Assembly: GCA_905182275.1 (NCBI GenBank)
Contig: CAJJAU010000010.1
Span: forward strand, 1 to 62,236
Origin: a gamma proteobacterium HTCC2207
GTDB taxonomy: Bacteria; Pseudomonadota; Gammaproteobacteria; Pseudomonadales; Porticoccaceae
Reading direction: 5' to 3'
DNA length: 62,236 nucleotides
Shown: piece by piece, positions 5,011 to 62,236 of the stretch
Numbering within the stretch: the stretch's first letter is position 1
Layout of the letters: each line of letters begins with the position of its first letter
Translations under genes and position numbers: made by a program
The notes under the pieces: generated by a model
Database searches by the model: none
What the model saw: the letters and a program-made list of their open reading frames with translations, nothing else
What the model was told of the DNA's origin: nothing

Positions 5011-5067
5011 CTACAGAATATTGCATTTTTAATGTATCTTGCGATAGTTTAAGTCACTAAAAAGGCG

Positions 5068-7089: not shown

Positions 7090-7146
7090 TATAAATCACT
7101 CCCATTCTTAGGTTAATAATCTAATTTGCTCTGTATAAGCCGTGAA

Positions 7147-7161
7147 TACCCTCTAAGGGTA
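7147..7161. promoter_or_regulatory. TACCCT-N3-AGGGTA dyad upstream of the PuuA-like gene
   Basis: A perfect 6-3-6 inverted repeat lies in the divergent region between the lipoprotein amidohydrolase and the PuuA-like ligase, about 82 bases before the ligase start. It resembles the ACCC/GGGT dyad upstream of puuD in sequence and distance. It could be an operator for a polyamine-responsive regulator; no such regulator is in the window. Confidence 0.3.
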
Positions 7162-7242
7162 GCTATGAACCTGCTGAACGACTCGCGGTTATCGGATACT
7201 ATGCCTTACTGATTCTAGTAATGATTATAGAGAACCTAACTT

Positions 7243-8589: not shown

Positions 8590-8727
8590 GCCTATAAATA
8601 GTTTTTAGCATATTCCTATTTGATCTAAATATTCTATTTTTTATTCCTAAAATTAATATATCATCATCGAATCGTCATTTGGTCCTATTGCCGCGATTTA
8701 AAATAAAGAGCTAAAACGGAAGTCAAA

Positions 8728-8761
8728 CTCCTAGGATTTAACATTAATTAAGTTTTAGGAG
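8728..8761 (+). promoter_or_regulatory. Hairpin sequestering the alkB-like Shine-Dalgarno sequence
   Basis: The 34 bases from 8728 to 8761 fold end to end into a 14-pair stem (three G-U pairs) with a six-base CATTAA loop. The 3' arm contains TAGGAG, so the strong AGGAGG ribosome binding site at 8757-8762 is almost wholly paired with CTCCTA at 8728-8733. The hairpin ends six bases before the ATG. This arrangement can act as translational control (temperature, protein or antisense). It is read directly from sequence; in vivo folding is not known. Confidence 0.6.
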
Positions 8762-8766
8762 GAAGA

Positions 8767-9885: not shown

Positions 9886-9945
9886 CGGTGAATGCCTAGG
9901 ACATTGATAGACCCTGATCTTGGATTAATTAGAGAGTGGCATAAC

Positions 9946-10254
9946 ATGTTGAATTTATTTAAACCCCGACCCACTAGTTATGCGGACCGTTTGTCGGATA
10001 CTGAAACCACTTTTACCGTTAAGCGAGGGGAGTCTTTACTAAGTTCTGCATTGTCTGCGGGGATAAAGTGGCCCTTCAAATGCAAAGTGGGTAGCTGCGG
10101 TACCTGTAAGTGCAAATTGATTGATGGAAAAATAAAAGCGCAACTGGATTTTGGTTATGTTTTGGATATGTCTGAAATACAAGATGGGTACATCCTTGCC
10201 TGCCAGAGCATCCTTAAATCCGATATTCAAGTGAGCGTTAACCTAACAAAGTAA
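9946..10254 (+). CDS. Plant-type [2Fe-2S] ferredoxin, electron donor candidate for the hydroxylase
   Basis: A small ferredoxin of 102 residues from this start. The cluster ligands are C-K-V-G-S-C-G-T-C (C-x4-C-x2-C) and a fourth Cys 31 residues later in ILACQS, the plant-type/XylA-N-terminal spacing. There is no reductase domain. I prefer the ATG at 9946, which has AGAGAG nine bases upstream. An earlier in-frame ATG at 9892, right after the hydroxylase stop, would add 18 residues but has its GGTGA only one base away. Its position directly after the hydroxylase strongly suggests that it delivers electrons to it, in place of the rubredoxin used by most AlkB enzymes. No ferredoxin reductase gene is adjacent. 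Confidence 0.88.
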   Translation: MLNLFKPRPTSYADRLSDTETTFTVKRGESLLSSALSAGIKWPFKCKVGSCGTCKCKLIDGKIKAQLDFGYVLDMSEIQDGYILACQSILKSDIQVSVNLTK

Positions 10255-10267
10255 CAGGAGTAAAAAA

Positions 10268-46613: not shown

Positions 46614-47822
46614 ATGAAACTAGTCGTCAAACAATGTGTCTGCCTGTTTATGTTTTCTTTGTTAAGCGAGGCTGTTTTAGCTAAAGAAAAGGTATTAGTC
46701 GTTGGCGCAGGAATAGTAGGCGCCTCGATTGGCTATCATCTCTCTTTGGAAGAGGTTGAAGTCACTATTATTGACATGCAATCACCAGCTTCTCATGCAT
46801 CATTGGCCACCTTTGCATGGATCAATGCGTCTTGGGCAAAACAACCGCAGGCTTATCATGCTCTAAATCAACAAAGTGTCGGCTATTGGCACGAATTGTC
46901 AAAGCAGATTGGTGTCCCTGTTAAGTGGGGCGGTTCTCTTGAGTGGTTTGAAAGTTCTGACCGTCAGGAAAAACTTGGCCTACAGGTTGCAGAGCAAATA
47001 GATTGGGGCGAGGCCGCCGAAATACTGCCTGTAGTCAGCGCTAAAATGTTGGAGCCTAATGTTACATTTATGGGTGCGGATAACGTAGCGTACTCTGCTA
47101 ACGATGGGGCAGTTGATCCCTCACAGGCTACAAAAAAGCTTCTCTCCGCCGCACAAACTAATGGTGCAAAAGTAATCTATCCATGTAAGTTAAACGGTAT
47201 CGCCAAAACCTTGAAAGGTGAAATCGCTGACACAACCTGCGGCCCTATGCCTTTTGATCAAATTGTACTTGCTGTGGGTGCGGCCTCTAAGACCATCGCT
47301 AACATCGCCAAACTGAATATCCCCCAGCGTTCAACGCCTGGCATTATTGTGGTGACAGAGCCCACTGAGCCTTTGTTGAATAGAATTATAGTCGCTCCTG
47401 GTGTGCATATTCATCAGCGTTTTGATGGGCGTATTGTAGTTGGTGAACAGGCCGGCGCACCAAAGACATCCGCTCATAATTTGAGGTTAAAGGGCAGACC
47501 TAATCGATATCCAAGCCAAGTCCTAGCTCAGGATCATGCTCAAAGAGTATTAGATTTGGCGGTGAAATATGTCCCACGATTAACAAATGTTAAGGCAGAT
47601 GAGATTTTGATTGGCTGGCGACCTCTGCCACTAGACGGTCATCCAGTGTTGGGCTATTCCAGTGAAGAACCCAGCGTCTATATTGCTGTTAGTCACAGCG
47701 GCATAACACTAGCCCCGATTATTGGCCGCTTGGTGGCAAAGGAGTTGATTGAGAAGCGACCGCTTGAGGTTTTAAATGCTTATCGACCGAACAGAGAATT
47801 TATAACAGTAGTGAGGTATTAA
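46614..47822 (+). CDS. DAO-family FAD-dependent oxidoreductase with a signal-like N-terminus
   Basis: A 402-residue flavoprotein of the D-amino acid oxidase/glycine oxidase/sarcosine dehydrogenase fold. The dinucleotide motif VLVVGAGIVGASIGYHLS, with the acidic TIIDM strand end, starts at about residue 27. The substrate domain contains ATFAWINASWAKQPQAYHALNQQS, and the C-terminal FAD contact is DEILIGWRPLPLDGHPVLGYS. Residues 1-23 form a Lys-start hydrophobic stretch ending SEAVLA, which looks like a Sec signal peptide. Related enzymes oxidise N-methyl or amino groups of amino acids. It is followed after nine bases by a GcvT-fold gene, so the pair probably passes a one-carbon unit from an N-methyl substrate to tetrahydrofolate. 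Confidence 0.85.
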   Translation: MKLVVKQCVCLFMFSLLSEAVLAKEKVLVVGAGIVGASIGYHLSLEEVEVTIIDMQSPASHASLATFAWINASWAKQPQAYHALNQQSVGYWHELSKQIGVPVKWGGSLEWFESSDRQEKLGLQVAEQIDWGEAAEILPVVSAKMLEPNVTFMGADNVAYSANDGAVDPSQATKKLLSAAQTNGAKVIYPCKLNGIAKTLKGEIADTTCGPMPFDQIVLAVGAASKTIANIAKLNIPQRSTPGIIVVTEPTEPLLNRIIVAPGVHIHQRFDGRIVVGEQAGAPKTSAHNLRLKGRPNRYPSQVLAQDHAQRVLDLAVKYVPRLTNVKADEILIGWRPLPLDGHPVLGYSSEEPSVYIAVSHSGITLAPIIGRLVAKELIEKRPLEVLNAYRPNREFITVVRY

Positions 47823-47831
47823 AATAATCTT

Positions 47832-49037
47832 ATGAAAAAAAGCGCCTTCTTTGATTTCTTTAATGACACGGATGCCGCCCAGTTTGAGCAGATTTTACAA
47901 ATAGGCGTTGAAGATCAAGATTATATTAATTGGAATGGGTTCTTGTTACCCAAAGATTACGGTAATGCTGAGCAAGAGTATTGGGCAATCCGTAAAAGTT
48001 GCGCCTTGTTTGATGTCTCCCCGATCCGAAAGATTAGAATTACTGGATCAGCTGCAGGACGATTATTAGATTATGTACTGACAAGACCTGTCAGTAATAC
48101 CCAGAGTATGCGAGGTATTTATGTTGCTTATTGTCATGAAGACGGCAGCATGAAAGATGATTCTATTCTCTACAAGTTTGCTCATGATGACTATCTATTG
48201 ATGCCTTCTGATATAGACCATTCAGCGTATCTTGATTCTTTCCGAGAACACTTAGATATTAGTCCTAAAGACCTAAGTATTACCGACTGTACTGACCATT
48301 GGCATGGTGTCGCTGTTCAAGGTCCGCAGTCAGCATCGATACTGGCATCAATGGGGTTTAATCAGGTAAATGAACTAAAGCCTTTTGAGGTTCGACAATA
48401 TGCCATTTTAGGCGCTAATGTGGTCGTTGCTCGAATGGGCTTCACCGCCGACCTGGGTTATGAGGTTTGGTTTCAGTCTGACTTTACGCCGACATTTCAA
48501 ACGTTAATTCAAGGCGCCAGAGACGCTAAAAAGCTAGCGATTCCAGCTTATGGGTTAACTGCACTAGAAGCATGTCGTTTGGAGGGCGCTTTTATTGTTG
48601 CTGGCTGGGATTTTTCCACGGAAGCTGATCCCGACCCTGACTTTGTGCGATCACCCTTTGAGGTTGGTTTGGGATGGTTAGTTAATCTAAAAGGAAAAGA
48701 CTTCGTTGGTCGTGATGCTCTCATTGATCAGAATGCCGGCGGGCAAAGATTCGTGCTGCGACAGTTTGAAATTAGCCAGCGTTGTGATGTCGAAGACGGT
48801 CTTGCCGTTTATGCGATGGTCAATGGTGGTCAACAGGAAGTTGGCTCCGTCAACTGCTCAGCGTGGTCGTGGGGGCTAGGTAGCCTTATTGGTAATCTGT
48901 CTCTTTATCAGCAGCACTCAGATTGTGCAGAGGCATGGATTCTTCTTAAGGGGGAGCGTTTTGATATGACGCTTAGCCGTGGACCATTTTTCAAGGATCC
49001 TCGACGGACCCAGACTCCAGTCTCTTTACTAGGTTAG
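47832..49037 (+). CDS. GcvT-fold aminomethyltransferase family protein 1, lacking the usual Asp
   Basis: A 401-residue protein of the folate-binding GcvT/YgfZ/DmdA superfamily. It shows the N-terminal WNGF...EYWAIRKSCALFDVSPIRKIRITG, the VAVQGPQS central motif, MGFTADLGYEVWF, and the C-terminal beta-barrel after FVGRDALI. In T-protein an Asp follows the TxND/TRD loop; the aligned sequence here is VLTRPVSNT, with Pro86 at that place. The second GcvT protein in the window has Asp there. It lies nine bases after the DAO-type oxidoreductase. Its stop overlaps the convergent flavoprotein gene by nine bases. Tetrahydrofolate binding is likely; the reaction may differ from aminomethyl transfer. Confidence 0.87.
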   Translation: MKKSAFFDFFNDTDAAQFEQILQIGVEDQDYINWNGFLLPKDYGNAEQEYWAIRKSCALFDVSPIRKIRITGSAAGRLLDYVLTRPVSNTQSMRGIYVAYCHEDGSMKDDSILYKFAHDDYLLMPSDIDHSAYLDSFREHLDISPKDLSITDCTDHWHGVAVQGPQSASILASMGFNQVNELKPFEVRQYAILGANVVVARMGFTADLGYEVWFQSDFTPTFQTLIQGARDAKKLAIPAYGLTALEACRLEGAFIVAGWDFSTEADPDPDFVRSPFEVGLGWLVNLKGKDFVGRDALIDQNAGGQRFVLRQFEISQRCDVEDGLAVYAMVNGGQQEVGSVNCSAWSWGLGSLIGNLSLYQQHSDCAEAWILLKGERFDMTLSRGPFFKDPRRTQTPVSLLG

Positions 49038-50602: not shown

Positions 50603-52216
50603 ATGAAAAACTACGACGCAATCATCATTGGAGCGGGCCACAATGGTCTTACCAACGCCGCTTTTCTAGCCAAGGCCGGCCTTGATGTTGTTGTTTTAGA
50701 AAAGAATGATTATATCGGTGGTGCCACCGCTAGTCTTGAGTTGCATCAGGACTGGAAATATTCAAACTGTTCCTACGTGTGTAGCCTGTTTAGACCTGAA
50801 ATCTACCAATCCCTTGATCTAGGGCGGCATGGTTTAGAGGTTGTGCCATTGCAGGGCAGTGTAACCTTTAAACAAGATGGTGATTATTTGGGCAGTTATC
50901 ACCAGCCCACTGTTTGGCGGCGAGAAGTTGCTAGGCATTCCAAACGTGATGCTGATGCAGCGATTAGGTTTGATGCTGACCTGATGAAATGGTGTCGCTT
51001 GATTCGTGGATTTTTACTGCGTACACCACCTGATCCTGCGTCTTTCAAAATACGTGATGCTATGGAATTCGCCTACTTGCTGAAGCGTTTTTATAGCCTC
51101 AGTGAAAGTCAGATTTACGAGTTCATCCGTTTCTTTACCATGTCGATTGCTGAGTATCTCGAACAGTACTTCGAGAGTGATGTCATTTTGGCGCATTTTT
51201 CTGGTGGTAGCATTATAGGGACTGGACTCGGTGTTTATTCTCCAGGAACAGCTTATGTCTTACTGCATCATGCAATGGGTGATGTTGATGGCAATGTAGG
51301 TTCTTGGGGGTTTGCTCGTGGTGGCATGGGTTCTGTCTCAGCAGCTATTGGGTCCGCTTTTAAATCTTATGGGGGTAACATACGCACCAATGCTGAGGTA
51401 CAAAATATTATTGTTAAGGGTCGCAAAGCAACCGGTGTAATGCTGGCCTCTGGCGAGCAAATCTATGCCAAGGCGGTAGTCTCCAACCTTGATGCGAAGC
51501 GTACTTTCCTGAGTCTGATGGATGCCAATGATATTCCAGCGGATTTGGTTAAACGTGCTGAAAACTTTAAGATTAGGGGCTCCTCTGGCAAGGTCAATAT
51601 TGCCCTTGATGGCATGCCTGAATTTCCGGCACTGCCCAAAGGGTCCCCGTTAACTCTGGGTCATATGCACTTTACCGATACATTGGAGAGACTTGAGCGA
51701 GCCTATGATGATTGGAAGGATGATCGATGGTCTCAGGACCCCTATGTCGACATGGTCATTCCAACGCAGTATGACCCAACCATGGCGCCTCCGGGTAAGC
51801 ACATGATGTCGGTATTTGTGCAGTATTGCCCGGTTGAAGCAGACGGGGGATGGACCGACGCTAAACGTGACGCCTTCGGCGCTGCAGTGATCGACCAAAT
51901 AGCCGATTACAGCCCTAATTTTAAAGATCTTATACTGCATGCCGAAATACGCACACCGCGTGAGCTTGAAGCCGAGGTGGGGTTGACGGAAGGTAATATA
52001 TTCCAAGGCGAGTTAACTCTGGACCAGCTGATGTTTAATCGTCCATTTCCAGGTTATGCTCAGTATAGGGGCCCGGTAAAAAACATGTATATGTGCAGTT
52101 CCTCTAATCATCCTGGCGGCGGTGTGATGGGTGCGCCAGGCGCAAATTCAGCGCGGGAAATTCTTCGAGATCTCGGTAAACCTAATACCACTCCGGAGGA
52201 CTTTGGCGATGACTAA
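50603..52216 (+). CDS. PYROXD2/phytoene-desaturase-like flavoprotein, type A (copy 1)
   Basis: A 537-residue FAD protein of the COG1233-like family. It begins MKNYDAIIIGAGHNGLTNAA with the GxGxxG dinucleotide motif and the acidic VVLEKN strand end. Type A marks are NCSYVCSL, FKIRGSSGKVNIAL, EGNIFQGEL, FNRPFPGYAQYRGP and the C-terminal FAD contact MYMCSSSNHPGGGVMGAPGANSAREIL. The first 40 residues match the gene at 60536 at 35 positions. I chose the ATG at 50603, since the longer reading from 50543 precedes the Rossmann strand with unrelated sequence. Its stop overlaps the next gene by eight bases. A desaturase, oxidase or dehydrogenase role is expected from the fold; a carotenoid role is unlikely since no crt genes are nearby. 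Confidence 0.88.
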   Translation: MKNYDAIIIGAGHNGLTNAAFLAKAGLDVVVLEKNDYIGGATASLELHQDWKYSNCSYVCSLFRPEIYQSLDLGRHGLEVVPLQGSVTFKQDGDYLGSYHQPTVWRREVARHSKRDADAAIRFDADLMKWCRLIRGFLLRTPPDPASFKIRDAMEFAYLLKRFYSLSESQIYEFIRFFTMSIAEYLEQYFESDVILAHFSGGSIIGTGLGVYSPGTAYVLLHHAMGDVDGNVGSWGFARGGMGSVSAAIGSAFKSYGGNIRTNAEVQNIIVKGRKATGVMLASGEQIYAKAVVSNLDAKRTFLSLMDANDIPADLVKRAENFKIRGSSGKVNIALDGMPEFPALPKGSPLTLGHMHFTDTLERLERAYDDWKDDRWSQDPYVDMVIPTQYDPTMAPPGKHMMSVFVQYCPVEADGGWTDAKRDAFGAAVIDQIADYSPNFKDLILHAEIRTPRELEAEVGLTEGNIFQGELTLDQLMFNRPFPGYAQYRGPVKNMYMCSSSNHPGGGVMGAPGANSAREILRDLGKPNTTPEDFGDD

Positions 52217-53768
52217 GTCTAACTCAGTGGTGATTATAGGTGGTGGCCACAACGGCTTAATCTGTGCGAGCTATCTTGCCAAAGCGGGCCACTCAGTTGA
52301 GGTATTGGAAGCCAGAGACACAGTCGGTGGCGGTGCATCTACAGCGGCTTTTGCCGAGGGCTATAGAACCTCCGGCCTGGCACATGTCCTTTATGGGCTT
52401 AATGCCAAAGTCTGTAAAGATCTTAAGTTAAATATCGTTAATCCCTCGTTCACCCAACCCGTTGACACTATTTCACTGCAACGCGATGGCGATCATCTCA
52501 CCCTAGGTCGGGATGAGGTTTCAGCAAACAGCCTGTCGGCAAAAGACCTTGAGGCCTATCGGGGATTTAAAAAAGAATTTCGAGGCTATGCCAAGGCGCT
52601 ACAACCGCTGATGATGAATACGCCTCCACGTCTAAAGGACATGGACAAAAAAGATAAATTAACCCTGGCGAAACTCGGCTGGAGCCTGCGCTTTGGTCTT
52701 GGTACTAATTCTATGCGTGAGTTTCTTCGTGTGGGCGGTATTAATATTTATGACGTTCTCAATGAGGTATTCGACAGCCCTGCGCTAAAGGGAGCAATCT
52801 CCGTGGATGCCGTTTTGGGTCAGCATATGGGCCCGCGCACACCCAATACAGTGTTGACCTACTTGCAGCGGCTATGGGGCGAGACGCAGACAGTGCAGAG
52901 TATTCCCATAGGTGGCATGGGCAAGGTCTCAGCGATGTTAGAAACCACCGCGGTCGAGGCTGGTGTGACCATAAGAATCGGAGCTAAAGTCGCTAAGATC
53001 TTAGTCGAAAACGGACGCACACAGGGTGTTCTCTTGCAGTCTGGTGAACGGGTCGATGCCGACATCGTTGTATCTAATGCCGATGCTAAAACCACCTTCA
53101 TCGATTTGGTGGGCGCGCCGCAGTTAGATGCAATGTTCTGTCACCGGGTTAACTCGGTGCGCCAGAATGGTGATGTTGCCAAATTACACTTTGCTCTAAA
53201 TGAATTGCCTGCTTTCACTGGACTGCCCACTCAGCAGTTAGCACAGCGGCTAATTATTGCCCCCGATATGCGCTATGTGGAGCATGCTTTCAATCATTCT
53301 AAATATGGTGAGTTTTCAGAGAACCCGGTATTGGAAATGACTATTCCCAGCGTGAGTGATTCTTCACTAGCACCAGCGGGTCATCATGTAATGTCGGTAT
53401 CGGCGACTTTTGCGCCCTATCATTTAAAAGAAGACTGGCAGCAGGACAGTCGAGATGCTTTTGTGCAAAGAGTAACGGAGACAATTGAGCAGTATGCACC
53501 AGGATTTTCGGCCTCCCTGGTCGCCTTCCAACTGCTCACCCCGGTGGACATTGAAGATCAATATAATATTACTGGTGGTCATTGGCACCATGGTGAATTA
53601 AGTATTGATCAATCGTTTATGATGCGCCCAGTGCATGGGGCGGCGCAATATCAAACGCCTATTGATGGACTCTACCTGTGTGGTGCTGCGGCCCATCCTG
53701 GCGGCGGCATTACAGGTGTTCCCGGTCACAATGCGGCTCAGCGAATATTGGCGATGGGAGACATGTAA
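52209..53768 (+). CDS. PYROXD2-like flavoprotein, type B (copy 1)
   Basis: A 519-residue FAD protein of the same family as its upstream neighbour but of a different subtype. It begins MTKSNSVVIIGGGHNGLICASYLAKAG. Type B marks are APRT/GPRTPNTVLTYLQRLWG, GGMGKVSAML, DVAKLHFALNELPAFTG, NITGGHWHHGEL, and LYLCGAAAHPGGGITGVPGHNAAQRIL. GGAGGA lies eight bases before the ATG, which is inside the upstream gene. The stop shares one base with the start of the GcvT-fold gene (TAATG), so the three are translationally linked. It resembles the gene at 58980 most closely. A heterodimer of types A and B is a reasonable inference. Confidence 0.88.
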   Translation: MTKSNSVVIIGGGHNGLICASYLAKAGHSVEVLEARDTVGGGASTAAFAEGYRTSGLAHVLYGLNAKVCKDLKLNIVNPSFTQPVDTISLQRDGDHLTLGRDEVSANSLSAKDLEAYRGFKKEFRGYAKALQPLMMNTPPRLKDMDKKDKLTLAKLGWSLRFGLGTNSMREFLRVGGINIYDVLNEVFDSPALKGAISVDAVLGQHMGPRTPNTVLTYLQRLWGETQTVQSIPIGGMGKVSAMLETTAVEAGVTIRIGAKVAKILVENGRTQGVLLQSGERVDADIVVSNADAKTTFIDLVGAPQLDAMFCHRVNSVRQNGDVAKLHFALNELPAFTGLPTQQLAQRLIIAPDMRYVEHAFNHSKYGEFSENPVLEMTIPSVSDSSLAPAGHHVMSVSATFAPYHLKEDWQQDSRDAFVQRVTETIEQYAPGFSASLVAFQLLTPVDIEDQYNITGGHWHHGELSIDQSFMMRPVHGAAQYQTPIDGLYLCGAAAHPGGGITGVPGHNAAQRILAMGDM

Positions 53769-54985
53769 TGCCGACTCAAACGGATAGCCACCCAGCGACT
53801 AATTTTAGAGAAGTTCTACAACCAAGTCCCTTTCAGACTCGCATTGATGAGCAATGCTTGGTGCAAGAGTGGATGTCCTGGAATGGGTATAAGACCGCCC
53901 GAGTGTTCGATACGCTGGCGTCTGAGTACTTTGCCGTTCGCAGTACTTGCAGTGTTATGGATCTAACTCCGATGGAGAAATACCGGATCACCGGTCCCGA
54001 TGCAATGGCGTTTTTGAATCGCCTGGTTACGCGCGACATTTCTGCGCTCAAGCCTCGGCGAGTCACCTATGTCATTTGGTGTAATGATGAGGGCAAAGTG
54101 CTTGATGATGGGACTATTTTTCACCTCAGTGAAGGTGACTATAGGCTCTGTTCTCAGCACCATCAATTGGACTGGTTACTGCTGTCTAGTCTGGGGTTTG
54201 ACGTTAATATAGAGCAGGAAACACACAATATAGCGGCCTTAGCGGTTCAAGGCCCAACGTCCTGTTCTGTGTTGACCGCGGCAGGTGTTACAGGTGTGGA
54301 ACGACTTAAACCGTTTGATATCGGTTACAGCACACTCAACGGAATCGATGTAATGGTCTCCCGGACAGGGTTTACCGGTGACCTAGGTTATGAAGTATGG
54401 GCTGATCCAACCAAGGCTCTTGCTGTCTGGGATGCTATTTTCGCGGTTAAAGAACAGGGTTTGTTTGATATACGGCCAATTGGTCTTGGTGCCTTAGATA
54501 TGGTGCGTATCGAAGCTGGTTTTATTATGCCTGGCGATGACTTTAACACCGCTGAAACCGCAGTAAGGGCAGATCGAGACCGATCACCCTTCGAGCTGGG
54601 TCTGGCTTGGTTGGTTAGTTTTAAAAAGCCCTATTTCACCGGTAAAAAGGCCCTCCTAGCGGAATCAAAAATGCTTACAGGCCGCCGCTTAGTGAGGCTC
54701 TCAGTAGAGGGCAATAAAACGCCCACAGATGCCTTCCTTTATGACAGTAAGGGCGGGTCACGTATAGGTACCATTAAATCTTGTGTATGGTCGCCTATAC
54801 TGAAGATGAACGTGTCCTTGGCGGATGTCGAATTCGTAAAGGGTAAGCCGCCTGAAAATATCTGGGCAGAGATCTATTACCAAAAAGAGCTTGAGTGGCG
54901 AGCTACCTGGGCTAAGTGTACTATGTCAACAAAACCATTTTGGAGTCATCCTCGAAGTTCGATTACTCCACCCAATAAGTTTTAG
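53768..54985 (+). CDS. GcvT-fold aminomethyltransferase family protein 2
   Basis: A 405-residue protein of the folate-binding GcvT superfamily. The start overlaps the previous stop as TAATG. Key parts are QEWMSWNGYKTARVFDTLASEYFAVRSTCSVMDLTPMEKYRITG, the loop LVTRDISAL with Asp90 at the place of the catalytic Asp of T-protein, ALAVQGPTSCSVL, VMVSRTGFTGDLGYEVW, and the barrel after FTGKKALLAESK. It is not the glycine cleavage T-protein: gcvH and gcvP are absent and the sequence is closer to the dimethylglycine/sarcosine and DMSP-demethylase-like branches by general pattern. It probably takes a methylene or methyl group released by the flavoproteins onto tetrahydrofolate. Confidence 0.87.
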   Translation: MPTQTDSHPATNFREVLQPSPFQTRIDEQCLVQEWMSWNGYKTARVFDTLASEYFAVRSTCSVMDLTPMEKYRITGPDAMAFLNRLVTRDISALKPRRVTYVIWCNDEGKVLDDGTIFHLSEGDYRLCSQHHQLDWLLLSSLGFDVNIEQETHNIAALAVQGPTSCSVLTAAGVTGVERLKPFDIGYSTLNGIDVMVSRTGFTGDLGYEVWADPTKALAVWDAIFAVKEQGLFDIRPIGLGALDMVRIEAGFIMPGDDFNTAETAVRADRDRSPFELGLAWLVSFKKPYFTGKKALLAESKMLTGRRLVRLSVEGNKTPTDAFLYDSKGGSRIGTIKSCVWSPILKMNVSLADVEFVKGKPPENIWAEIYYQKELEWRATWAKCTMSTKPFWSHPRSSITPPNKF

Positions 54986-55011
54986 GCGGTCGATTTAGCA
55001 GGAGTCTTAGG

Positions 55012-55413
55012 ATGATAACTGGACGATGTGAATGCCAAAAAGTGCGGTTTCAGGTCGATGGCGAAATAAACGATTACAGTCACTGCCACTGCAGCCAGTG
55101 CAGACGCCTGCATGGCGCGGCCTTTGCTTCATATGCTGGAGTCGAGCGCACTGCTTTGAGATACCTTTCCGGTAAGTCAGAAATATCTTCTTATGCTTCT
55201 TCAGATAGTCATCAGAGACTGTTCTGTAAAAACTGTGGTTCTAATATTTTGGTGGCAACGACAGAGGAGCCTAATGCACTCTATCTTGCCATGGGGGTGA
55301 TCGACGGCAATCCAAAATTGCCACCTGCCTACCATATCTTCATGGGCTCCAAGGCGCCCTGGTATGAATTCGATAATAGGGGAGAACAGCACGATACATT
55401 CCCCGATGAGTAA
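55012..55413 (+). CDS. GFA/CENP-V family zinc protein
   Basis: A 133-residue protein with the GFA zinc pattern: GRCECQKVRF, SHCHCSQCRR and LFCKNCGSNIL give the seven Cys that bind two zinc ions in this fold. AGGAG precedes the ATG. The family was named for glutathione-dependent formaldehyde activation, but that activity is doubtful for most members. It is nevertheless notable next to genes that may release one-carbon units. It follows the GcvT-fold gene by 26 bases and is probably in the same operon. Confidence 0.88.
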   Translation: MITGRCECQKVRFQVDGEINDYSHCHCSQCRRLHGAAFASYAGVERTALRYLSGKSEISSYASSDSHQRLFCKNCGSNILVATTEEPNALYLAMGVIDGNPKLPPAYHIFMGSKAPWYEFDNRGEQHDTFPDE

Positions 55414-55444
55414 GTAATGCAGCAGTCTACAAAGGGTTTTAGCC

Positions 55445-55975
55445 ATGATACAAAACATAAAGTTAGCAATTTTTAACCACGTCAGGCTACTAAAGATCCT
55501 CGCGTTTTTTAGTTGGAGTATGCTCATGCTGATGGTTGGCGTTGTCAGTCAGGATCATATCGGTATTACTAATGTCTATGCTGATGGCCATGCCAGTACT
55601 AATCTATCCATTGTCCGTTTGGATCGGCAGCGATTGGAAGGTGAAAATCTGGGTGATTTTGCACCCTATGAACCGGATGCTGGCAATCTTGTTGCGCGTG
55701 GCCATGATTATTTTTACAGTGCCGATGAAAATTTTGGGATTGGTGTGTGGGAGAGTAAGCCGGGTCAAATGAGCTATGATGATCTTGAATATGATGAATT
55801 AATGTTGGTCCTTGAGGGTAGTTTAATCATGACGAACAACTATGGAGAGAAGGAGGTGTATAAGGCCGGAGAGGGCTTAGTGTTACCGCAAGGCTGGAGC
55901 GGGACATTGACTGTGGCTGAGTCGGGCGTAAGAAAAATATGGGTGTCTTACATGGGTGGCATCAAAGGGAAGTGA
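55445..55975 (+). CDS. Exported or membrane-anchored cupin-domain protein
   Basis: A 176-residue protein. A hydrophobic segment (residues 19-36, LAFFSWSMLMLMVGVV) is a signal anchor or signal peptide, followed at a distance by a single cupin barrel (about 90-170) with EYDELMLVLEGSLIMTNNYGEKEVYKAGEGLVLPQGWSGTL. The usual first motif histidines are replaced by Glu/Asp, as in the EutQ/DUF861 group. AAAGGG precedes the ATG. It lies 31 bases after the GFA gene. The substrate and metal are unknown. Confidence 0.8.
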   Translation: MIQNIKLAIFNHVRLLKILAFFSWSMLMLMVGVVSQDHIGITNVYADGHASTNLSIVRLDRQRLEGENLGDFAPYEPDAGNLVARGHDYFYSADENFGIGVWESKPGQMSYDDLEYDELMLVLEGSLIMTNNYGEKEVYKAGEGLVLPQGWSGTLTVAESGVRKIWVSYMGGIKGK

Positions 55976-56037
55976 TTTCCAAAATACAGTAAAACTGAGA
56001 TTCCTAATCAAATAAAATATAAAAATAAGGAATGGCA

Positions 56038-58002
56038 ATGTTTCATAAAACTAATAGATCTGTTTTGGCGGTGTCTTTTTTACTCACCGCATGCAGTGCT
56101 CCAGACTCAACCACAGAGGTCGCTGTCAGCGAGGCTAGCAACAGTCATCTCGGTGAGCAATCCGAGACTCACAGTTGTGATAATGCCAACCAAAACGGCA
56201 CAGCACTGTTTGGGGATCTGCACATACATACTCGCTACTCATTTGATGCCGCGGCTAACAGTACTGGGGCAACTCCTGAAGATGCCCATCGCTATGCTCG
56301 CGGAGAAGAGATTCCTATTTTTCCCATTAACGATCAAGGGGTTGCTGTTGGCCGCACCAAAATAGATCGTCCGTTAGACTTTTTGGCAGTGACTGACCAT
56401 GGCGAATTTCTCGGTGAGCGAGCGCTGTGCCGAACGGCGTCTTCGCCGGTATACAGCACAGCGTTTTGTGTTGGCTATAGATCTGATGAACGTCTGGGTA
56501 TGGTGATGTTGTCTAGCGTCATTACTACTGAGACACCAACAAGAATCCCCGAGATCTGTGGTCAGGATGGCAGTCTCTGTCGCGATTATGCCAAGTCTCC
56601 TTGGGAAGATATTCAAGCAGTCTCCAATCGCGCCAATACACCCTGTGAATTTACTAGTTTTGTCGCCTATGAATATACCGGAACCCCCGGGGTCTCTAAC
56701 TATCACCGCAATGTTATTTTTAGAAATGACGTGGTACCAGCTTTGCCTGTCAGTTATATCGACGCACCTATTGATAGCAAATTGTGGGCCGCGCTGGATG
56801 ATGCTTGTGACCCCCAACAAGGTTGTGATTATCTGACTATTCCACACAACACTAATCTATCTAACGGGCGCATGGCGCCCTACATGCAGCTTGAAAATAC
56901 CACTGAAGTAAAACGAGCCTATGCGCAGAAACGTCTGCAACGCGAGCCTATCATGGAGATTTTCCAACACAAAGGTGGCTCAGAATGCATTAACGGCTTG
57001 AGCAGTATTTTTGGTGCGCCTGATGAATTGTGTAATGTGGAAGCCGTTAGGCGAATCGGTGAGAAAAAAACCTACAGTGTTCGTGATTATGAAGCCGAGG
57101 GGATTGCCATGATGGAAACGTCGTCGGTAACTAAAGAATGTGACTCTAATGAGATTGGTGAGAACGGCATGGTGGGTGCCGGATGCGTTCATCCCACGGA
57201 CTTCCAGCGATCAGCTTTATTGGTGGGTTTGAGGGAGGAGCAGACTATTGGTTTAAATCCCATTAAGTTAGGCATTATTGCCGCCACCGATACGCATTCG
57301 GCAAACGCCGGTGGTGTAAAAGAATCAGCTTGGGTGGGTGCTGTAAGTGGTGAAGGTTCAGCAATAGAGCGTTTGCAGCCAGGGCTTTTGACTAGCGGTA
57401 TCGATGGAAATCCGGGTGGTTTGGCGGGCGTATGGGCCAAAGAAAACACCCGTGATGCAATTTTCGATGCGATGCTGAGAAAAGAAGTATTTGGCACCTC
57501 TGGCCCTAGAATTAGACCCCGGTTATTTGCCGGTTGGTCATTGGATCAAGGACTTTGTGAGCGCAGCGATATGATTGCTCAAGCTTACACAAATGGGGTT
57601 CCTATGGGTGGTGATCTAATGCCATCAGCGTCTGCGGTTAAACCATCATTCTTAGCTTATGCAGTGAAGGACCCAGATGGGCAAAAGTTACATGCTCTAG
57701 AGCTGATTAAAGGCTGGATCGACGACCAAGGCAAGATGACCGCAGAGGTAATTCCTGTTGCTAGTAATGAGAAAGGCGCAGACAGTCTTTGTGCGGTGTA
57801 TGTCGACAACAACTTTGAAGCGTCTCAGTCGGCTTATTATTACCTGCGCGCTGTTGAGCCCGAGACAGCTCGTTGGCATACCTATGACTGCGCTTCTATT
57901 GATGAGGGACAGCGCCCACCGGTGTGCACTGATGGAAGCTACCCAGAAACTATCGTAGAAATGGCTTGGACATCACCAATCTGGTACCAGGGAAAGGATT
58001 AA
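56038..58002 (+). CDS. DUF3604-domain lipoprotein, PHP-like hydrolase candidate
   Basis: A 654-residue lipoprotein whose signal peptide ends FLLTAC with lipidated Cys19. DUF3604 marks run through the protein: LFGDLHIHTRYSFDA (HxH), FLAVTDHGEFLGE, FVAYEYTGTPG, NYHRNVIFRN, LTIPHNTNLSNG, MEIFQHKGGSEC, GIIAATDTHSANAGG and EVFGTSGPRIRPRLFAG. The spaced His/Asp motifs look like a PHP-type metal site. The ATG at 56038 has AAGGA six bases upstream; the ATG at 56032 would be too close to it. Family function is not established. Outer membrane or periplasmic location and its place between the two flavoprotein modules suggest a part in handling the same substrate before uptake. Confidence 0.88.
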   Translation: MFHKTNRSVLAVSFLLTACSAPDSTTEVAVSEASNSHLGEQSETHSCDNANQNGTALFGDLHIHTRYSFDAAANSTGATPEDAHRYARGEEIPIFPINDQGVAVGRTKIDRPLDFLAVTDHGEFLGERALCRTASSPVYSTAFCVGYRSDERLGMVMLSSVITTETPTRIPEICGQDGSLCRDYAKSPWEDIQAVSNRANTPCEFTSFVAYEYTGTPGVSNYHRNVIFRNDVVPALPVSYIDAPIDSKLWAALDDACDPQQGCDYLTIPHNTNLSNGRMAPYMQLENTTEVKRAYAQKRLQREPIMEIFQHKGGSECINGLSSIFGAPDELCNVEAVRRIGEKKTYSVRDYEAEGIAMMETSSVTKECDSNEIGENGMVGAGCVHPTDFQRSALLVGLREEQTIGLNPIKLGIIAATDTHSANAGGVKESAWVGAVSGEGSAIERLQPGLLTSGIDGNPGGLAGVWAKENTRDAIFDAMLRKEVFGTSGPRIRPRLFAGWSLDQGLCERSDMIAQAYTNGVPMGGDLMPSASAVKPSFLAYAVKDPDGQKLHALELIKGWIDDQGKMTAEVIPVASNEKGADSLCAVYVDNNFEASQSAYYYLRAVEPETARWHTYDCASIDEGQRPPVCTDGSYPETIVEMAWTSPIWYQGKD

Positions 58003-58047
58003 AATAATTATATAGGGACATATTATGGATAGGTCGGAGTCTGCATT

Positions 58048-58896
58048 ATGAATGCCAAAGTGATCACTATTGGACAACAATCATTTGAGATTCGCCAAAC
58101 TATTAAGTGGCTCGTTTATACTTTAGTCATTATTAATTTTGGCTTCTATATCAGGAATGACTTGGTCATTGCCGGCCATACTCTGTATAGCGGAAGCTCT
58201 CTTCTAGAGATCTCTCGAGCCTTTGCGACCACCATTGATGAAAGTGCTTGGATTATCTTGCTACTGCTGTTCGAGCTAGAGACCTACCTTTTGTCGGACG
58301 ACCCCCTATCTCGTGCTAAAACGCTATTAATGCAAGGCATAAGACTGGTCTGCTATATATCATTGGCGCACACCCTTTATGCTTATGGGGTTTATCTGGC
58401 TGAAATCTATGCTGCAGTCCCTGTTGAAGAAGTTACTAACCTTTGTCAGTTGATCGGCAAAGATCTCTCCTATGCGTCTAACTTAGTGTATTCCGAAATC
58501 AACAGTAGTAATTGCGCCAGTTTATCCTCAGCCAATCAGTTCTTTTATGTGGATCCTCCCACCTTCTTTATTGTTGAAGACGCAGCGGGGTTAGCGATCG
58601 AAAAACAATTAGCGTGGATTGATATTTTTGAAGCCATCATTTGGTTGCTCATACTGCTTAGTATTGAGGTTGCAGTTTGGCTACAGGACAGAAATATTGG
58701 CCAAGGGCTAATTTTCAAGACTTTAAGCATCACAAAATGGTGTCTCTACTCTTTGCTTTGGGCCGCTGCGGGGTATTGGATCTATCGAGGCCACTACATG
58801 TTTGCCTGGGATGAGTTTGTCTGGATTGCGGGCTTTGTCGCTATCGAGATGAACATTGTTGAATGGCGTAATGAAATTAATGACGCTGAAGTTTAG
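58048..58896 (+). CDS. Integral membrane protein of unknown function
   Basis: A 282-residue protein with about six transmembrane segments (near residues 22-42, 65-85, 98-118, 202-222, 230-250 and 256-272) and a polar loop of about 75 residues (125-200) that contains two Cys. Acidic residues lie close to or within several helices (FELETYLL, LSIEVAVWL, FVAIEMNIVEW), as seen in ion or small-solute carriers. GGAG lies before the ATG. I do not recognise the family. It lies 45 bases after the DUF3604 gene and before the second flavoprotein module, so it may be a transporter or electron-transfer partner. Confidence 0.7.
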   Translation: MNAKVITIGQQSFEIRQTIKWLVYTLVIINFGFYIRNDLVIAGHTLYSGSSLLEISRAFATTIDESAWIILLLLFELETYLLSDDPLSRAKTLLMQGIRLVCYISLAHTLYAYGVYLAEIYAAVPVEEVTNLCQLIGKDLSYASNLVYSEINSSNCASLSSANQFFYVDPPTFFIVEDAAGLAIEKQLAWIDIFEAIIWLLILLSIEVAVWLQDRNIGQGLIFKTLSITKWCLYSLLWAAAGYWIYRGHYMFAWDEFVWIAGFVAIEMNIVEWRNEINDAEV

Positions 58897-58979
58897 TGAT
58901 CAATGCGTATAGGCGCGGTGGTGAGAGGAGGGGGCTAATACTAGTCTCCCTATAACGTTCAACTTCAAGAGAGTCTCTG

Positions 58980-60533
58980 TTGCAAGCATACGACAATATA
59001 ATCATTGGCGGTGGCCATAACGGTCTTATCTGTGCCACCTATCTGGCTCAAAAAGGCCAGTCAGTGTTACTGCTAGAAGCCACTGATACCCTGGGTGGTT
59101 TAGCGAGCACGCGTGAATTTCACCCGGGTTTTAGGGTTCCTGTCGCCCACAGCTTAAGTCATTTCTCCGAGACGATAGTCAAGCAATTAAATCTACTCGA
59201 TCATGGCTATAAGCCTAGCAAAGACACGCTCGACACTATTGGTTTGAACCTGGACGGTGAGCATGTAGTTGTTTCTGGGGAGCAGGTCACGGGCGTAAGT
59301 AGTTCAGACCAAAAAACCTATGCGGATTATCTCGCGCTGCTGAAGCGTTTTGCCAAGATGCTCAAGCCATTTTGGCTAAAAACCATGCCACGTATTGGCG
59401 ACAACAGTTTCCCTGACCTGATGACATTTGGGCAACTCGGTCTTAAATTACGCCTCTTGGGCAAAAAAGATATGGGTGAGTTTATGCGCGTTGCGACGCT
59501 GCCCGCACGCGATTTGATGGATGAGAATTTTGATAATGAAATATTAAAAGCGATGCTTAGTTGGGATGGTCTTATTGGCTCCAAGATGGCTCCGCGCTCT
59601 CCCAATGCGACTGTGTTAAATATGTTGTATCGCATGAGTGGCCAGCATCATGGCGCCCATTCACTGCCCGAAGGCGGCATAGAAAACTTAGTTAATGCGC
59701 TGCATAATGCAGCCCTGGACGCCGGTGTTACTGTGCAGACGAGGGCTTTAGTTAAGCGTATTGTCATTGAAGGTGATACCACTGGATTGGCAGCCACTGG
59801 CGTTGAGCTTGCCGATGGAACGCTAATCAATGGTGCTCGGGTGGTTTCCTCGGCAGATCCCAAGCAGACCTTCCTTAACTTGGTGGGAGCGAAAAATCTT
59901 GAAATTGGTTTTACTAATCGAATTAATCGATTGCGCTGCGACGGGTATGTCGCCAAGTTGCATTTGGCATTGGACGGAGCGCCAAAATTCACGGGTATAG
60001 AAACACCCAATGGTCGCATGATTATTGCCCCAAAATTAGATGCCATTGAGTTTGCCTTTGACGATGCAAAATACGGGCAATACTCTCAATCACCGGTTAT
60101 GGAAATTATTGTTCCCAGCGTAAAAGATCAATCATTGGCGCCAGCCGGTAAACAGGTGCTGTCTGCCCATGTTATGTATGTTCCTCACACACTTAAAGGT
60201 GGCTGGACAGAAGAGGCGCACCAACATTTATATCAGCGCTTGATTGAGACTCTCGAGTCCTATGCTCCCGGCATTGGACAACAAATTATTCATGGCGAAC
60301 TTCTAACACCGGCAGATTTAGAGCAAACCTACCACCTTACTGGCGGCCATTGGCATCATGCAGAATTGTCTATGGACCAAATGTTGATGATGCGGCCCAC
60401 CTATGAAGCCGCTCAATATAGCACCCCAATTCCTGGGCTTTATCTGTGTGGCGCCGGAAGTCATCCTGGCGGAGGATTGATGGGTGGCCCAGGCCATAAC
60501 GCCGCCAAAGAAATTATCGGGGCGAAGAAATAG
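58980..60533 (+). CDS. PYROXD2-like flavoprotein, type B (copy 2)
   Basis: A 517-residue FAD protein beginning QAYDNIIIGGGHNGLICATYLA. It starts with TTG at 58980, supported by AAGAGAG six bases upstream; there is no in-frame ATG before the Rossmann strand. Type B marks shared with the gene at 52209 are APRSPNATVLNMLYR, GYVAKLHLALDGAPKFTG, HLTGGHWHHAEL and LYLCGAGSHPGGGLMGGPGHNAAKEII. It is followed after two bases by the type A copy, so gene order is reversed relative to the first module. The long HWHH motif, absent in type A, may be catalytic or cofactor-related. Confidence 0.88.
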   Translation: MQAYDNIIIGGGHNGLICATYLAQKGQSVLLLEATDTLGGLASTREFHPGFRVPVAHSLSHFSETIVKQLNLLDHGYKPSKDTLDTIGLNLDGEHVVVSGEQVTGVSSSDQKTYADYLALLKRFAKMLKPFWLKTMPRIGDNSFPDLMTFGQLGLKLRLLGKKDMGEFMRVATLPARDLMDENFDNEILKAMLSWDGLIGSKMAPRSPNATVLNMLYRMSGQHHGAHSLPEGGIENLVNALHNAALDAGVTVQTRALVKRIVIEGDTTGLAATGVELADGTLINGARVVSSADPKQTFLNLVGAKNLEIGFTNRINRLRCDGYVAKLHLALDGAPKFTGIETPNGRMIIAPKLDAIEFAFDDAKYGQYSQSPVMEIIVPSVKDQSLAPAGKQVLSAHVMYVPHTLKGGWTEEAHQHLYQRLIETLESYAPGIGQQIIHGELLTPADLEQTYHLTGGHWHHAELSMDQMLMMRPTYEAAQYSTPIPGLYLCGAGSHPGGGLMGGPGHNAAKEIIGAKK

Positions 60534-60535
60534 CA

Positions 60536-62155
60536 ATGAAAAAGTATGATGCCATTATTATCGGTGCCGGCCACAATGGATTAACCAATGCAGCCTACTT
60601 GGCTAAAGCAGGTCTGGATGTGCTGGTTGTTGAGAAAAACGAGTACATTGGTGGTGCTGCGGTGACCCGTGAAATGCATGACGGCTGGTTTTACTCAAGC
60701 TGCTCCTATGTGTGCAGCATGATGCGACAGACTATTCATCGCGATCTTAATCTAACCAAGCATGGTCTGGTTTTAGTACCGTATCTTGGCACGGTAGTAT
60801 TCGCCGATAACGGTGACACCATGACTAGTTATCACTCTGAAGAGGCCGAATATAATCAACTGCGGCGTCGCTCGCCCCATGATGCAGATGCAATGTTTCG
60901 CTTCCAGACCGACCTTGGCCGCTATGCCCAACTTATTCGTAAAACACTGCTGCGAACCCCGCCAAATCCAACCTCCTTTAGGCCGAGAGATATAAGGGAG
61001 CTGCTGTGGTTGGCGAAAGAATTTTGGTCGCTCGGGGAAAAAGAGCTCTACGAGTACATCCGCTTTTTCACCATGAGCGCCGCTGATTTTCTAGATGACT
61101 ATTTTGAAGATGACCTAATAAAAGCTGCCATGGCCAGCCCAGGAGTGATTGGTACTGCCTTGGGGGTGTACTCACCTGGATCGGCTTATATTTTACTGCA
61201 TCATGTGATGGGTGATGTGGATGGTAATGTGGGTGCCTGGGGTCTGGCAAGAGGTGGCATGGGCGCTATTTCTAACGCTATAGCAGGGGCTTTGCAGGAG
61301 CATGGAGGCGAGATTCGCACCAATGCTGGGGTTGATAAAATTGTGGTTAAAAACGGCAAGGCAACGGGCGTTGTGCTGGATAATGGTGATGAACTACATG
61401 CTAAGATCGTGGTGTCTAATATGGATGCCAAACGCACCTTTACCCAATGCATGGACAAAAATGATTTGCCGGCGGGAATTTACGAAAAAGCCAAAAACTT
61501 CAAAATTAGAGGCTCCTCCGGCAAGGTCAATATTGCACTATCGGGCTTACCCAAATTCAATAATGTGGCTGATAACCGATACATTAACCGAGGTGGACAG
61601 GGTTTTGTGGGTTCAATGGAAACTATGGAACGCGCCTATGACTGCTGGAAGCACGGTCGCTGGTCTGAAGACCCCTTTATAGAATCAGTTATCCCGTCAG
61701 CTTGGGACCCAACCGTGGCGCCGCCAGGGCAACACTGGATGTCAAACTTTGTCCAATATTGTCCGCCGCAGCTGGCCGATGGGCCCTGGACAGCGGAAAA
61801 ACGCGATGCCTTTGGCCAGACGGTCATCAACAAAATTGAACGCTACAGTCCCGGCTTTAAAGATTTGATTGTGCATATGGAGGTACGTACTCCCCATGAC
61901 ATAGAAGCTGAAGTTGGACTTACCGAAGGAAATATTTTTCAGGGTGAATTGACCATAGATCAGTTGCTGTTTAATCGACCCTTTCCTGGTTATGCCCAAT
62001 ACCGCATGCCGATTAAAAACATGTATATGTGTGGCTCATCTACGCATCCAGGGGGTGGCGTCTCATCAGCCTGCGGTGCCAATGCAGCACGAGAAATCCT
62101 TATGGATCTAAAACGTCCCAACACTGTACCAGAGGATGATTTTTACGATGAATAG
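60536..62155 (+). CDS. PYROXD2-like flavoprotein, type A (copy 2)
   Basis: A 539-residue FAD protein beginning MKKYDAIIIGAGHNGLTNAA. It shares with the gene at 50603 the segments SSCSYVCSM, YEYIRFFTMS, LGVYSPGSAYILLHHVMGDVDGN-type sequence, FKIRGSSGKVNIAL, EGNIFQGEL, FNRPFPGYAQYR and CGANAAREIL. Conservation between the two is high over the whole length by eye. Its stop overlaps the next, truncated gene by eight bases, exactly as in the first type A gene. With the preceding type B gene and the following GcvT-fold gene it forms the second module. Confidence 0.88.
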   Translation: MKKYDAIIIGAGHNGLTNAAYLAKAGLDVLVVEKNEYIGGAAVTREMHDGWFYSSCSYVCSMMRQTIHRDLNLTKHGLVLVPYLGTVVFADNGDTMTSYHSEEAEYNQLRRRSPHDADAMFRFQTDLGRYAQLIRKTLLRTPPNPTSFRPRDIRELLWLAKEFWSLGEKELYEYIRFFTMSAADFLDDYFEDDLIKAAMASPGVIGTALGVYSPGSAYILLHHVMGDVDGNVGAWGLARGGMGAISNAIAGALQEHGGEIRTNAGVDKIVVKNGKATGVVLDNGDELHAKIVVSNMDAKRTFTQCMDKNDLPAGIYEKAKNFKIRGSSGKVNIALSGLPKFNNVADNRYINRGGQGFVGSMETMERAYDCWKHGRWSEDPFIESVIPSAWDPTVAPPGQHWMSNFVQYCPPQLADGPWTAEKRDAFGQTVINKIERYSPGFKDLIVHMEVRTPHDIEAEVGLTEGNIFQGELTIDQLLFNRPFPGYAQYRMPIKNMYMCGSSTHPGGGVSSACGANAAREILMDLKRPNTVPEDDFYDE

Positions 62156-62236
62156 CATGCCAAAAGTCACCGATCCTTTTGCTGGTGAGCGATTAAAGGA
62201 AAGTCCTTTTCATCCTCGTCAGGCAGCATTGAACCT
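62148..62236 (+). CDS. GcvT-fold aminomethyltransferase family protein 3 (cut by window end)
   Basis: Only the first 29 codons are in the window. The translation starts MNSMPKVTDPFAGERL and continues KESPFHPRQAALN, which matches the start pattern of GcvT-fold protein 2 (LQPSPFQTRIDEQC) and related dimethylglycine-type aminomethyltransferases. The ATG overlaps the stop of the type A flavoprotein by eight bases. The assignment rests on this short match and on position, so it is likely but not certain. An alternative start is the ATG at 62157. Confidence 0.65.
   Translation, partial: MNSMPKVTDPFAGERLKESPFHPRQAALN

Follow-up and report, generated by a model that had tools for sequence, protein, structure and literature searches.

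To our knowledge, all folate-coupled oxidative N-demethylases described so far use DAO-type flavoproteins. Other relatives with the GcvT fold, DmdA and LigM, transfer an intact methyl group directly. Here we describe a set of three adjacent genes, encoding two flavoproteins of the CrtO/PYROXD2 type (types A and B) and a stand-alone GcvT-fold protein (T), which is found twice in a 62,236-nucleotide stretch of DNA (the window) representing an entire contig (C10; CAJJAU010000010.1) of the marine gamma proteobacterium HTCC2207 assembly GCA_905182275.1. The A-B-T unit is real and old, not a case of chance neighbours, and probably constitutes a folate-coupled oxidative N-demethylase. The host genome comprises 2.0 Mb and is rated 91% complete; judged by the type-A protein, its closest named relatives, among the 80 best matches out of at least 585, are Porticoccaceae metagenome-assembled genomes, with 96% and 92% identity.

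The A-B-T unit and its conservation

Module 1 (A1-B1-T1) covers positions 50603-54985 of the window and module 2 (B2-A2-T2) positions 58980-62236:

50603..52216, + strand: A1, type-A CrtO/PYROXD2-like flavin adenine dinucleotide (FAD) oxidoreductase, 537 amino acids (aa) (Pfam Amino_oxidase/DAO; A clade in the tree)
52209..53768, + strand: B1, type-B FAD oxidoreductase, 519 aa (Pfam Amino_oxidase, E=4.7e-17; B clade)
53768..54985, + strand: T1, GcvT-fold protein (GCV_T, E=1.2e-56)
58980..60533, + strand: B2, type-B flavoprotein, 517 aa (Pfam; tree)
60536..62155, + strand: A2, type-A flavoprotein, 539 aa (Pfam; 62% identical to A1)
62148..62236, + strand: T2 start, GcvT-fold gene cut by the contig end (remainder on contig C75, locus L021, 10712-11941, - strand)

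A1 and B1 overlap by 8 bases and B1 and T1 by 1 base, while B2 and A2 are separated by 2 bases and A2 overlaps T2, with its ATG at 62148, by 8 bases. These spacings are exactly those given in an earlier note on this DNA, which described two sets of A, B and GcvT-fold genes. Both sets are real, with the corrections that module 2 runs in the order B-A-T, that T2 is cut after about 29 codons, and that the genome contains a third module, A3-B3-T3, on contig C83, with A3 cut at the contig start. T2 is completed by C75, the right end of which has 127 bases identical to the end of C10; the open frame there is 405 aa long from the ATG at 62148 and 409 aa long from an earlier in-frame ATG.

In a scan of named genomes, at least 585 matches were obtained, of which the best 80 were retained; the scan thus bears on the near relatives of type A. 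In these, B is adjacent to A in 78 of 79 loci, and T as well in 74; of the five loci without T, four end within or just after B, the fifth being L142, discussed below. When all loci read were considered, B and T were present within 5 kb of 113 of the 120 type-A genes sharing at least 55% identity, a count that keeps identical A proteins, draws on partly overlapping collections of loci and includes four genes (L194-L197) that came through the T search and test A, not T. Contig ends explain six of the seven type-A genes lacking B and T, the window's A2 among them. Identical A proteins were then counted once, giving 105 complete units for the tree, the distances and the lists of modules. More distant relatives (below 45% identity) had no B match in any of 18 cases, and a T-like match within 5 kb in six, namely L079 and L132 (loci that also carry a full module), the flavoprotein pair of L065, L188 and L202.

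Searches with profiles gave a similar separation. Among 369 genomes of the class, the T profile matched the host and five others; A-B-T is present in four of the latter, and in the fifth an A-like gene (46%) follows T at a contig end. With the type-A profile, a search of 398 genomes of the phylum gave 20 genomes besides the host, which fall into two score groups: ten with 790-947 bits, which had A-B-T in all eight neighbourhoods read, and ten with 503-547 bits, which had B in none of the seven read. Nine plasmid records match A, seven of them at 57-61% identity, and these seven are exactly the ones that match T. The plasmid modules occur in Rhizobium, Shinella, Ensifer, Fuscovulum and Parasedimentitalea; five of the seven matching plasmids were examined, one of which has no annotation. 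The earlier note had reasoned that its proposal would fall if type A and B genes were usually found without a GcvT-fold partner. This is not so, given the 113 of 120 type-A genes with their partners and the same seven plasmids recovered from both directions.

Protein families, module types and gene neighbourhoods

Both A and B match the Pfam families Amino_oxidase, DAO and NAD_binding_8 and keep the N-terminal dinucleotide-binding motif, the DAO match being confined to this N-terminal dinucleotide stretch. The motif S-S-[GA]-K-[LV]-N is present in A of all 105 units. Its lysine, at a place resembling that of the monoamine oxidase lysine, was considered as a catalytic residue and is not used as evidence; A aligned to an amine oxidase only at the N-terminus, and its alignment to a CrtI-like protein was gapped at this lysine.

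Among solved structures, those closest to the profile of T1-T3 are Thermotoga maritima GcvT (E=9.4e-62) and trimethylamine N-oxide (TMAO) demethylase (3.9e-61), with 3tfh, which we take to be DmdA, and LigM being farther away (2.2e-36 and 4.1e-21). T belongs to the GcvT fold in the broad sense (T1 scores 192 bits against a GCV_T gathering score of 25.6), and lies below the curated GcvT score of 235.85, with 150.7, 158.2 and 189.1 bits for T1, T2 and T3. Among NCBIfam models, all three match TMAO demethylase (Tdm) best, through its GcvT part (E=4.6e-71 for T1); the scores are 240-260 bits against a cut-off of 1100, and the alignment is confined to the C-terminal half of the Tdm model (within positions 382-761 of 763). 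The scores of T1 are also below the cut-offs of the direct demethylases DmdA (119 vs 410), LigM (52 vs 580) and DesA (55 vs 800). In GcvT, conserved Asp, Glu and Arg residues serve folate binding and catalysis. The equivalent of T. maritima D96 (residue 114 in T1) is Asp in 104 of the 105 units and that of E195 is Glu in all of them, while Arg at the position of R227 is found in none (Leu 77, Thr 27, Tyr 1); this Arg is kept in the host's own GcvT.

Phylogenetic analysis placed A and B in two clades distinct from the generic homologues (support 100/99 for B, and 100/99 for A with L142). The type of each module was set according to which B query matched it best; the B protein of L124 was left out of the B set, and the T of L134, which is cut by a contig end, out of the T set. 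Types 1 and 2 each form a well-supported clade of their own, and type 3 forms a grade around them. One locus, L185, is of type 1 by its B query and lies among type 3 in the tree; it is included in the type-1 context counts. Among 104 located units the gene order is A-B-T in 78 and B-A-T in 26, every B-A-T unit being of type 2. Modules of types 1 and 2 are close neighbours on the same strand in the host genome and in L071, L089, L094, L110 and L116, and L071 shares one contig with the type-3 locus L129. The term 'duplicated module' used earlier is misleading in that the copies represent old paralogous types whose regulators and neighbours differ; a recent duplication was rejected, as A1 and A2 are only 62% identical and types 1 and 2 are old clades. 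A deep-branching cluster, T-A-B'-Rieske, was found in L065 (6074-11749), its B' placed beside clade B with weak support (94/94) on a long branch.

The neighbourhoods of the types differ, with counts that are lower bounds since many loci are short. In the 58 type-3 loci, the genes recognised include a BetI-like regulator (41 loci), a GbcA-like Rieske oxygenase (34), PotG (27) and PotF (21) of polyamine-type transporters, together with genes for an acyl-CoA ligase (ACD; 21), a GSA-like aminotransferase (GSAT; 21), an acyl-CoA dehydrogenase (ACAD; 19), a gamma-glutamylputrescine synthetase-like protein (GS; 19) and an aldehyde dehydrogenase (13). At the same threshold, BetI, Rieske, PotF, ACAD, GSAT and GS are all absent from 12 loci of generic homologues, which contain PotG and ACD once each, a class III aminotransferase twice and aldehyde dehydrogenase four times. 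The best NCBIfam model for the type-3 Rieske protein is GbcA (271 bits, cut-off 670), and its best chains in the PDB are 3vca and 4qup ('Monoxygenase; demethylase'), presumably stachydrine demethylase. The four annotated plasmid modules (Rhizobium sp. SL42, Shinella zoogloeoides ATCC 19623, Fuscovulum ytuae and Parasedimentitalea marina) each have, in the stretch read, a TetR-type regulator, an ABC transporter with its solute-binding protein, an aminotransferase and a ring-hydroxylating oxygenase. As judged by these gene families, the type-3 neighbours point to N-methylated amines as substrates.

Type-2 loci (32) contain a gene for a membrane protein (16), a PuuB-like oxidase (14), an AraC-type regulator (14) or a MOSC protein (9), and in four cases a protein with a GFA domain (glutathione-dependent formaldehyde-activating enzyme-like). 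AraC (5), PuuB (4) and GFA (2) were also found in the 13 loci of type 1. The window's modules are thus not simply copies of the type-3 pathway.

Proposed function and rival explanations

We consider it likely that A-B-T acts as a folate-coupled oxidative N-demethylase. Within the amine-oxidase/CrtI fold, A and B belong to the CrtO/PYROXD2 branch; as paralogous FAD enzymes working as separate subunits, they would convert an N-methyl group of the methylated substrate amine by oxidation into a methylene iminium or a carbinolamine, and T would move the carbon onto tetrahydrofolate (THF), yielding 5,10-methylene-THF. The earlier note had proposed in the same sense that the flavoproteins oxidise a methylated compound and the GcvT-fold protein takes the carbon; the linkage (113/120) and the N-methylated-amine context of type 3 favour this proposal, the chemistry, the order of steps and the class of substrate being what we infer. 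Further support comes from the correlated distances of A, B and T, the closeness of T to T. maritima GcvT and TMAO demethylase with its retained Asp and Glu, the PurU and formaldehyde genes beside one module, the host's one-carbon genes and the association of human PYROXD2 variants with methylated amines.

For type 3 a tentative scheme in three steps, possible rather than probable, can be drawn from the genes nearby. The substrate would be imported by a Pot-type ABC transporter under the control of the BetI-like repressor; the GbcA-like Rieske oxygenase would take the first methyl off a trimethylammonium group, the second and third being left to A, B and T. An aminotransferase or gamma-glutamylation, followed by aldehyde dehydrogenase, acyl-CoA ligase and acyl-CoA dehydrogenase, might finish the carbon chain. 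Such a pathway parallels the breakdown of glycine betaine. The window's type 1 and type 2 modules probably serve other methylated amines and adjoin other genes: the GFA protein, the AraC-type regulator, the PuuB-like oxidase and the membrane protein. The earlier suggestion of either two related substrates or two successive demethylations can accordingly be narrowed: different substrates are favoured by the age of the paralogous types and by the differences in their regulators and neighbours, and one substrate handled twice is disfavoured.

Several observations weigh against the demethylase proposal or its generality. Type-2 loci have Rieske genes in only two cases and neither BetI nor PotF, and type-1 loci have BetI in three, PotF in one and Rieske in none, so that the three-step scheme leaves out the window's own modules. 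Genes for PurU or formaldehyde metabolism adjoin modules in only one or two loci, among them a type-2 locus in which S-formylglutathione hydrolase, hydroxymethylglutathione dehydrogenase and PurU adjoin the module. The L065 cluster carries a Rieske gene of the KshA type (KshA_C domain, not GbcA type) although it belongs to the generic homologues, and L187 has a weak Rieske-like match and Pot genes beside a generic homologue; this context is therefore not exclusive to A-B-T. Fusions of A with B, B with T or any other combination of the three were absent from the 79 loci. In T of L186 the conserved Asp is replaced by Glu. Finally, L142 has a type-A gene without adjacent B or T; as this protein lies within clade A, the lone gene looks like the result of a loss of B and T. 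In that locus (4905-10267) the type-A gene is followed by genes for a class III aminotransferase, an MFS transporter and an APH-type kinase.

One rival takes A and B for carotenoid-type desaturases (a possibility also raised in the earlier note) or ketolases, with T an accidental neighbour or a GcvT-like protein of repair or regulation. CrtO and CrtI are indeed the best NCBIfam models of A and B, and in the fold search with predicted structures (pLDDT, predicted local distance difference test, 82.6 for A1 and 90.1 for B1) the gamma-carotenoid desaturase 4rep came first for both (TM scores of 0.75 and 0.76), which is another point against the demethylase proposal. The second nearest fold of A1 is 4dgk, and the lower matches of A and B comprise phytoene desaturases, Rab-GDI, NicA2, putrescine oxidase and monoamine oxidases; with both kinds of enzyme matched, the fold gives no choice between carotenoid and amine chemistry. 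However, A1, B1, B2 and A2 score far under the carotenoid cut-offs (227-275 vs 1000 bits for CrtO and 112-129 vs 238 for CrtI), the three genes are kept together across many genera, and carotenoid genes were not recognised in the annotated part of the neighbour clusters. Bird PYROXD2, about 35% identical to Synechocystis CrtO, showed no detectable carotenoid activity in cell culture (PMC12010460). On model scores, partner gene and neighbourhood, the carotenoid reading was rejected as very improbable.

Two further rivals retain amine or methyl chemistry and divide the work differently. If T passed an intact methyl group to THF, as in DmdA- or LigM-like O- or S-demethylation giving 5-methyl-THF, A and B would act elsewhere, for example in oxidising the demethylated product. 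The T proteins do match the DmdA model (E values of 1.8e-34 to 9.8e-44), yet DmdA and LigM are much more remote from them than GcvT and TMAO demethylase are, and the type-3 context concerns N-methyl rather than S- or O-methyl groups, which makes this explanation unlikely. It is also conceivable that the backbone of the amine is what A and B oxidise, at C-N or C-C bonds, as NicA2 and putrescine oxidase do (both are among their fold matches), and that T only scavenges formaldehyde released by the Rieske enzymes common beside type 3. Against this, A, B and T stay together in types 1 and 2, where a Rieske gene is hardly ever nearby, so that T there needs another source of carbon. In addition, the correlation of pairwise distances over the 105 units is highest for A-T (0.91, compared with 0.88 for B-T and 0.84 for A-B), values computed without control for species relatedness on non-independent loci, which reduces what they lend to the demethylase proposal. 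We regard the scavenging explanation as distinctly improbable.

The host genome and comparison with known systems

Around the two modules the window contains the following genes:

46614..47822, + strand: DAO-type flavoprotein adjoining T4 (PF01266, E=6.5e-53)
47832..49037, + strand: T4, GcvT-fold protein paired with the DAO gene (PF01571, E=1.5e-47)
55012..55413, + strand: GFA-domain protein (PF04828, E=1.2e-28), with a homologue in six other loci of those searched
55445..55975, + strand: EutQ-like cupin protein (PF05899, E=6.5e-12), with a homologue in one other locus, L070
56032-58002: DUF3604 protein, located between modules 1 and 2
58048..58896, + strand: membrane-like protein upstream of module 2, matching no Pfam family, with a homologue in 16 of the 32 type-2 loci

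The DAO gene and T4 (46614-49037) form a different split flavoprotein/GcvT pair just upstream of module 1, probably outside the A-B-T unit, and the membrane-like protein is a possible electron acceptor or transporter. Genome-wide, 12 matches to GCV_T were found, and the host is therefore rich in one-carbon enzymes. Besides the T genes there is a separate GcvT gene, and large GcvT-domain proteins are encoded by open frames of 840, 978 and 1023 aa. Genes for PurU, FolD, FTHFS and glutathione-dependent formaldehyde dehydrogenase are present, so that outlets for methylene-THF and formaldehyde would exist.

Some other associations were noted among the loci. In L202 (7995-10746), a plasmid of Shinella sumterensis, a single generic PYROXD2/CrtO-like gene directly adjoins a GcvT gene and may represent a simpler version with one flavoprotein; carnitine 3-dehydrogenase-like and 3-keto-5-aminohexanoate-cleavage-like genes are also present there. 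An Asp/Asn beta-hydroxylase-like gene (L129, 2202-2765) recurs near modules in 10 of the 79 loci, and a gene on C75 (L021, 2846-3412) is similar to it, as judged by eye only.

The flavoprotein family has a human member, PYROXD2, reported to be a disease gene of unclear function (PMC8777681). Several reports connect it with methylated amines. A missense PYROXD2 variant accounted for 50% of the variance of plasma N6-methyllysine, 48% of that of dimethyllysine and 21% of that of N-methylpipecolate, and was the strongest genetic link in that plasma metabolome study (PMC8109053). The PYROXD2 locus was linked to urinary trimethylamine and plasma dimethylamine, both higher with lower PYROXD2 expression (PMC3169529), the trimethylamine association was repeated (PMC4564198), and the compounds associated with PYROXD2 bear methylated amino groups (PMC13355647). 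We infer the link between A/B and PYROXD2 from their shared similarity to CrtO. It is plausible, if somewhat short of probable, that CrtO/PYROXD2-type flavoproteins in general, the human one included, are N-methylamine dehydrogenases. In Pseudomonadota, two of them would then have been recruited together with a dedicated GcvT-fold partner into a hitherto undescribed folate-coupled demethylation system, with operon types for betaines, methylated polyamines and methyl-lysines, and human PYROXD2 would likewise act on methyl-lysines and methylamines.

A literature search found no demethylation system combining a CrtO/PYROXD2-type flavoprotein with GcvT, a result that is weak for subscription papers, as these were mostly outside the search. 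PYROXD2 or phytoene together with GcvT occurred in no paper found, while PYROXD2 and phytoene co-occur; on the homarine pathway, which was also considered, the papers listed gave no lead. If the proposed function is correct, A-B-T would be a second solution to folate-coupled oxidative N-demethylation, and methylated nitrogen would have a new sink in marine and rhizosphere habitats, given the occurrence of the unit in marine gammaproteobacterial genomes and on the plasmids named above. It would also offer a testable function for the flavoprotein family and, since one variant explains half of the N6-methyllysine variance in the study mentioned above, the operons could make the orphan human enzyme testable as well.

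Compared with dimethylglycine dehydrogenase, sarcosine dehydrogenase and heterotetrameric sarcosine oxidase, A-B-T shares the combination of a flavoprotein with a GcvT-fold folate domain and the oxidative N-demethylation feeding THF that is proposed here. In those enzymes the flavoprotein is of the DAO type and usually fused to the GcvT domain or in complex with it, whereas here it is of the CrtO/PYROXD2 type and comes as two paralogous separate subunits with a stand-alone T. A-B-T does not belong to that group, as the DAO match is N-terminal only, T1 has a low soxA score (133 bits, cut-off 1164) and the genes were not fused in any of the 79 loci. Tdm, the best NCBIfam match of T1-T3, differs in having an N-terminal part that T lacks, T remaining below its cut-off. 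With GcvT the likeness extends to the fold and the conserved Asp and Glu, and the difference to the Arg missing from T in 105 of 105 units and to scores under the curated cut-offs. The GbcA and Stc2 Rieske routes resemble the scheme proposed for type 3, in which a Rieske N-demethylase is followed by flavin-dependent demethylation; their flavin step uses other flavoenzymes, while here it would be carried out by A, B and T. For human PYROXD2 we know of no GcvT partner. Its likeness to A and B, that of a CrtO-like flavoprotein family, is drawn from the CrtO-model scores of A/B and from the report on bird PYROXD2 (PMC12010460). Taken together, A-B-T most likely represents flavoprotein-plus-GcvT demethylation in a variant form that draws on another flavoprotein family.

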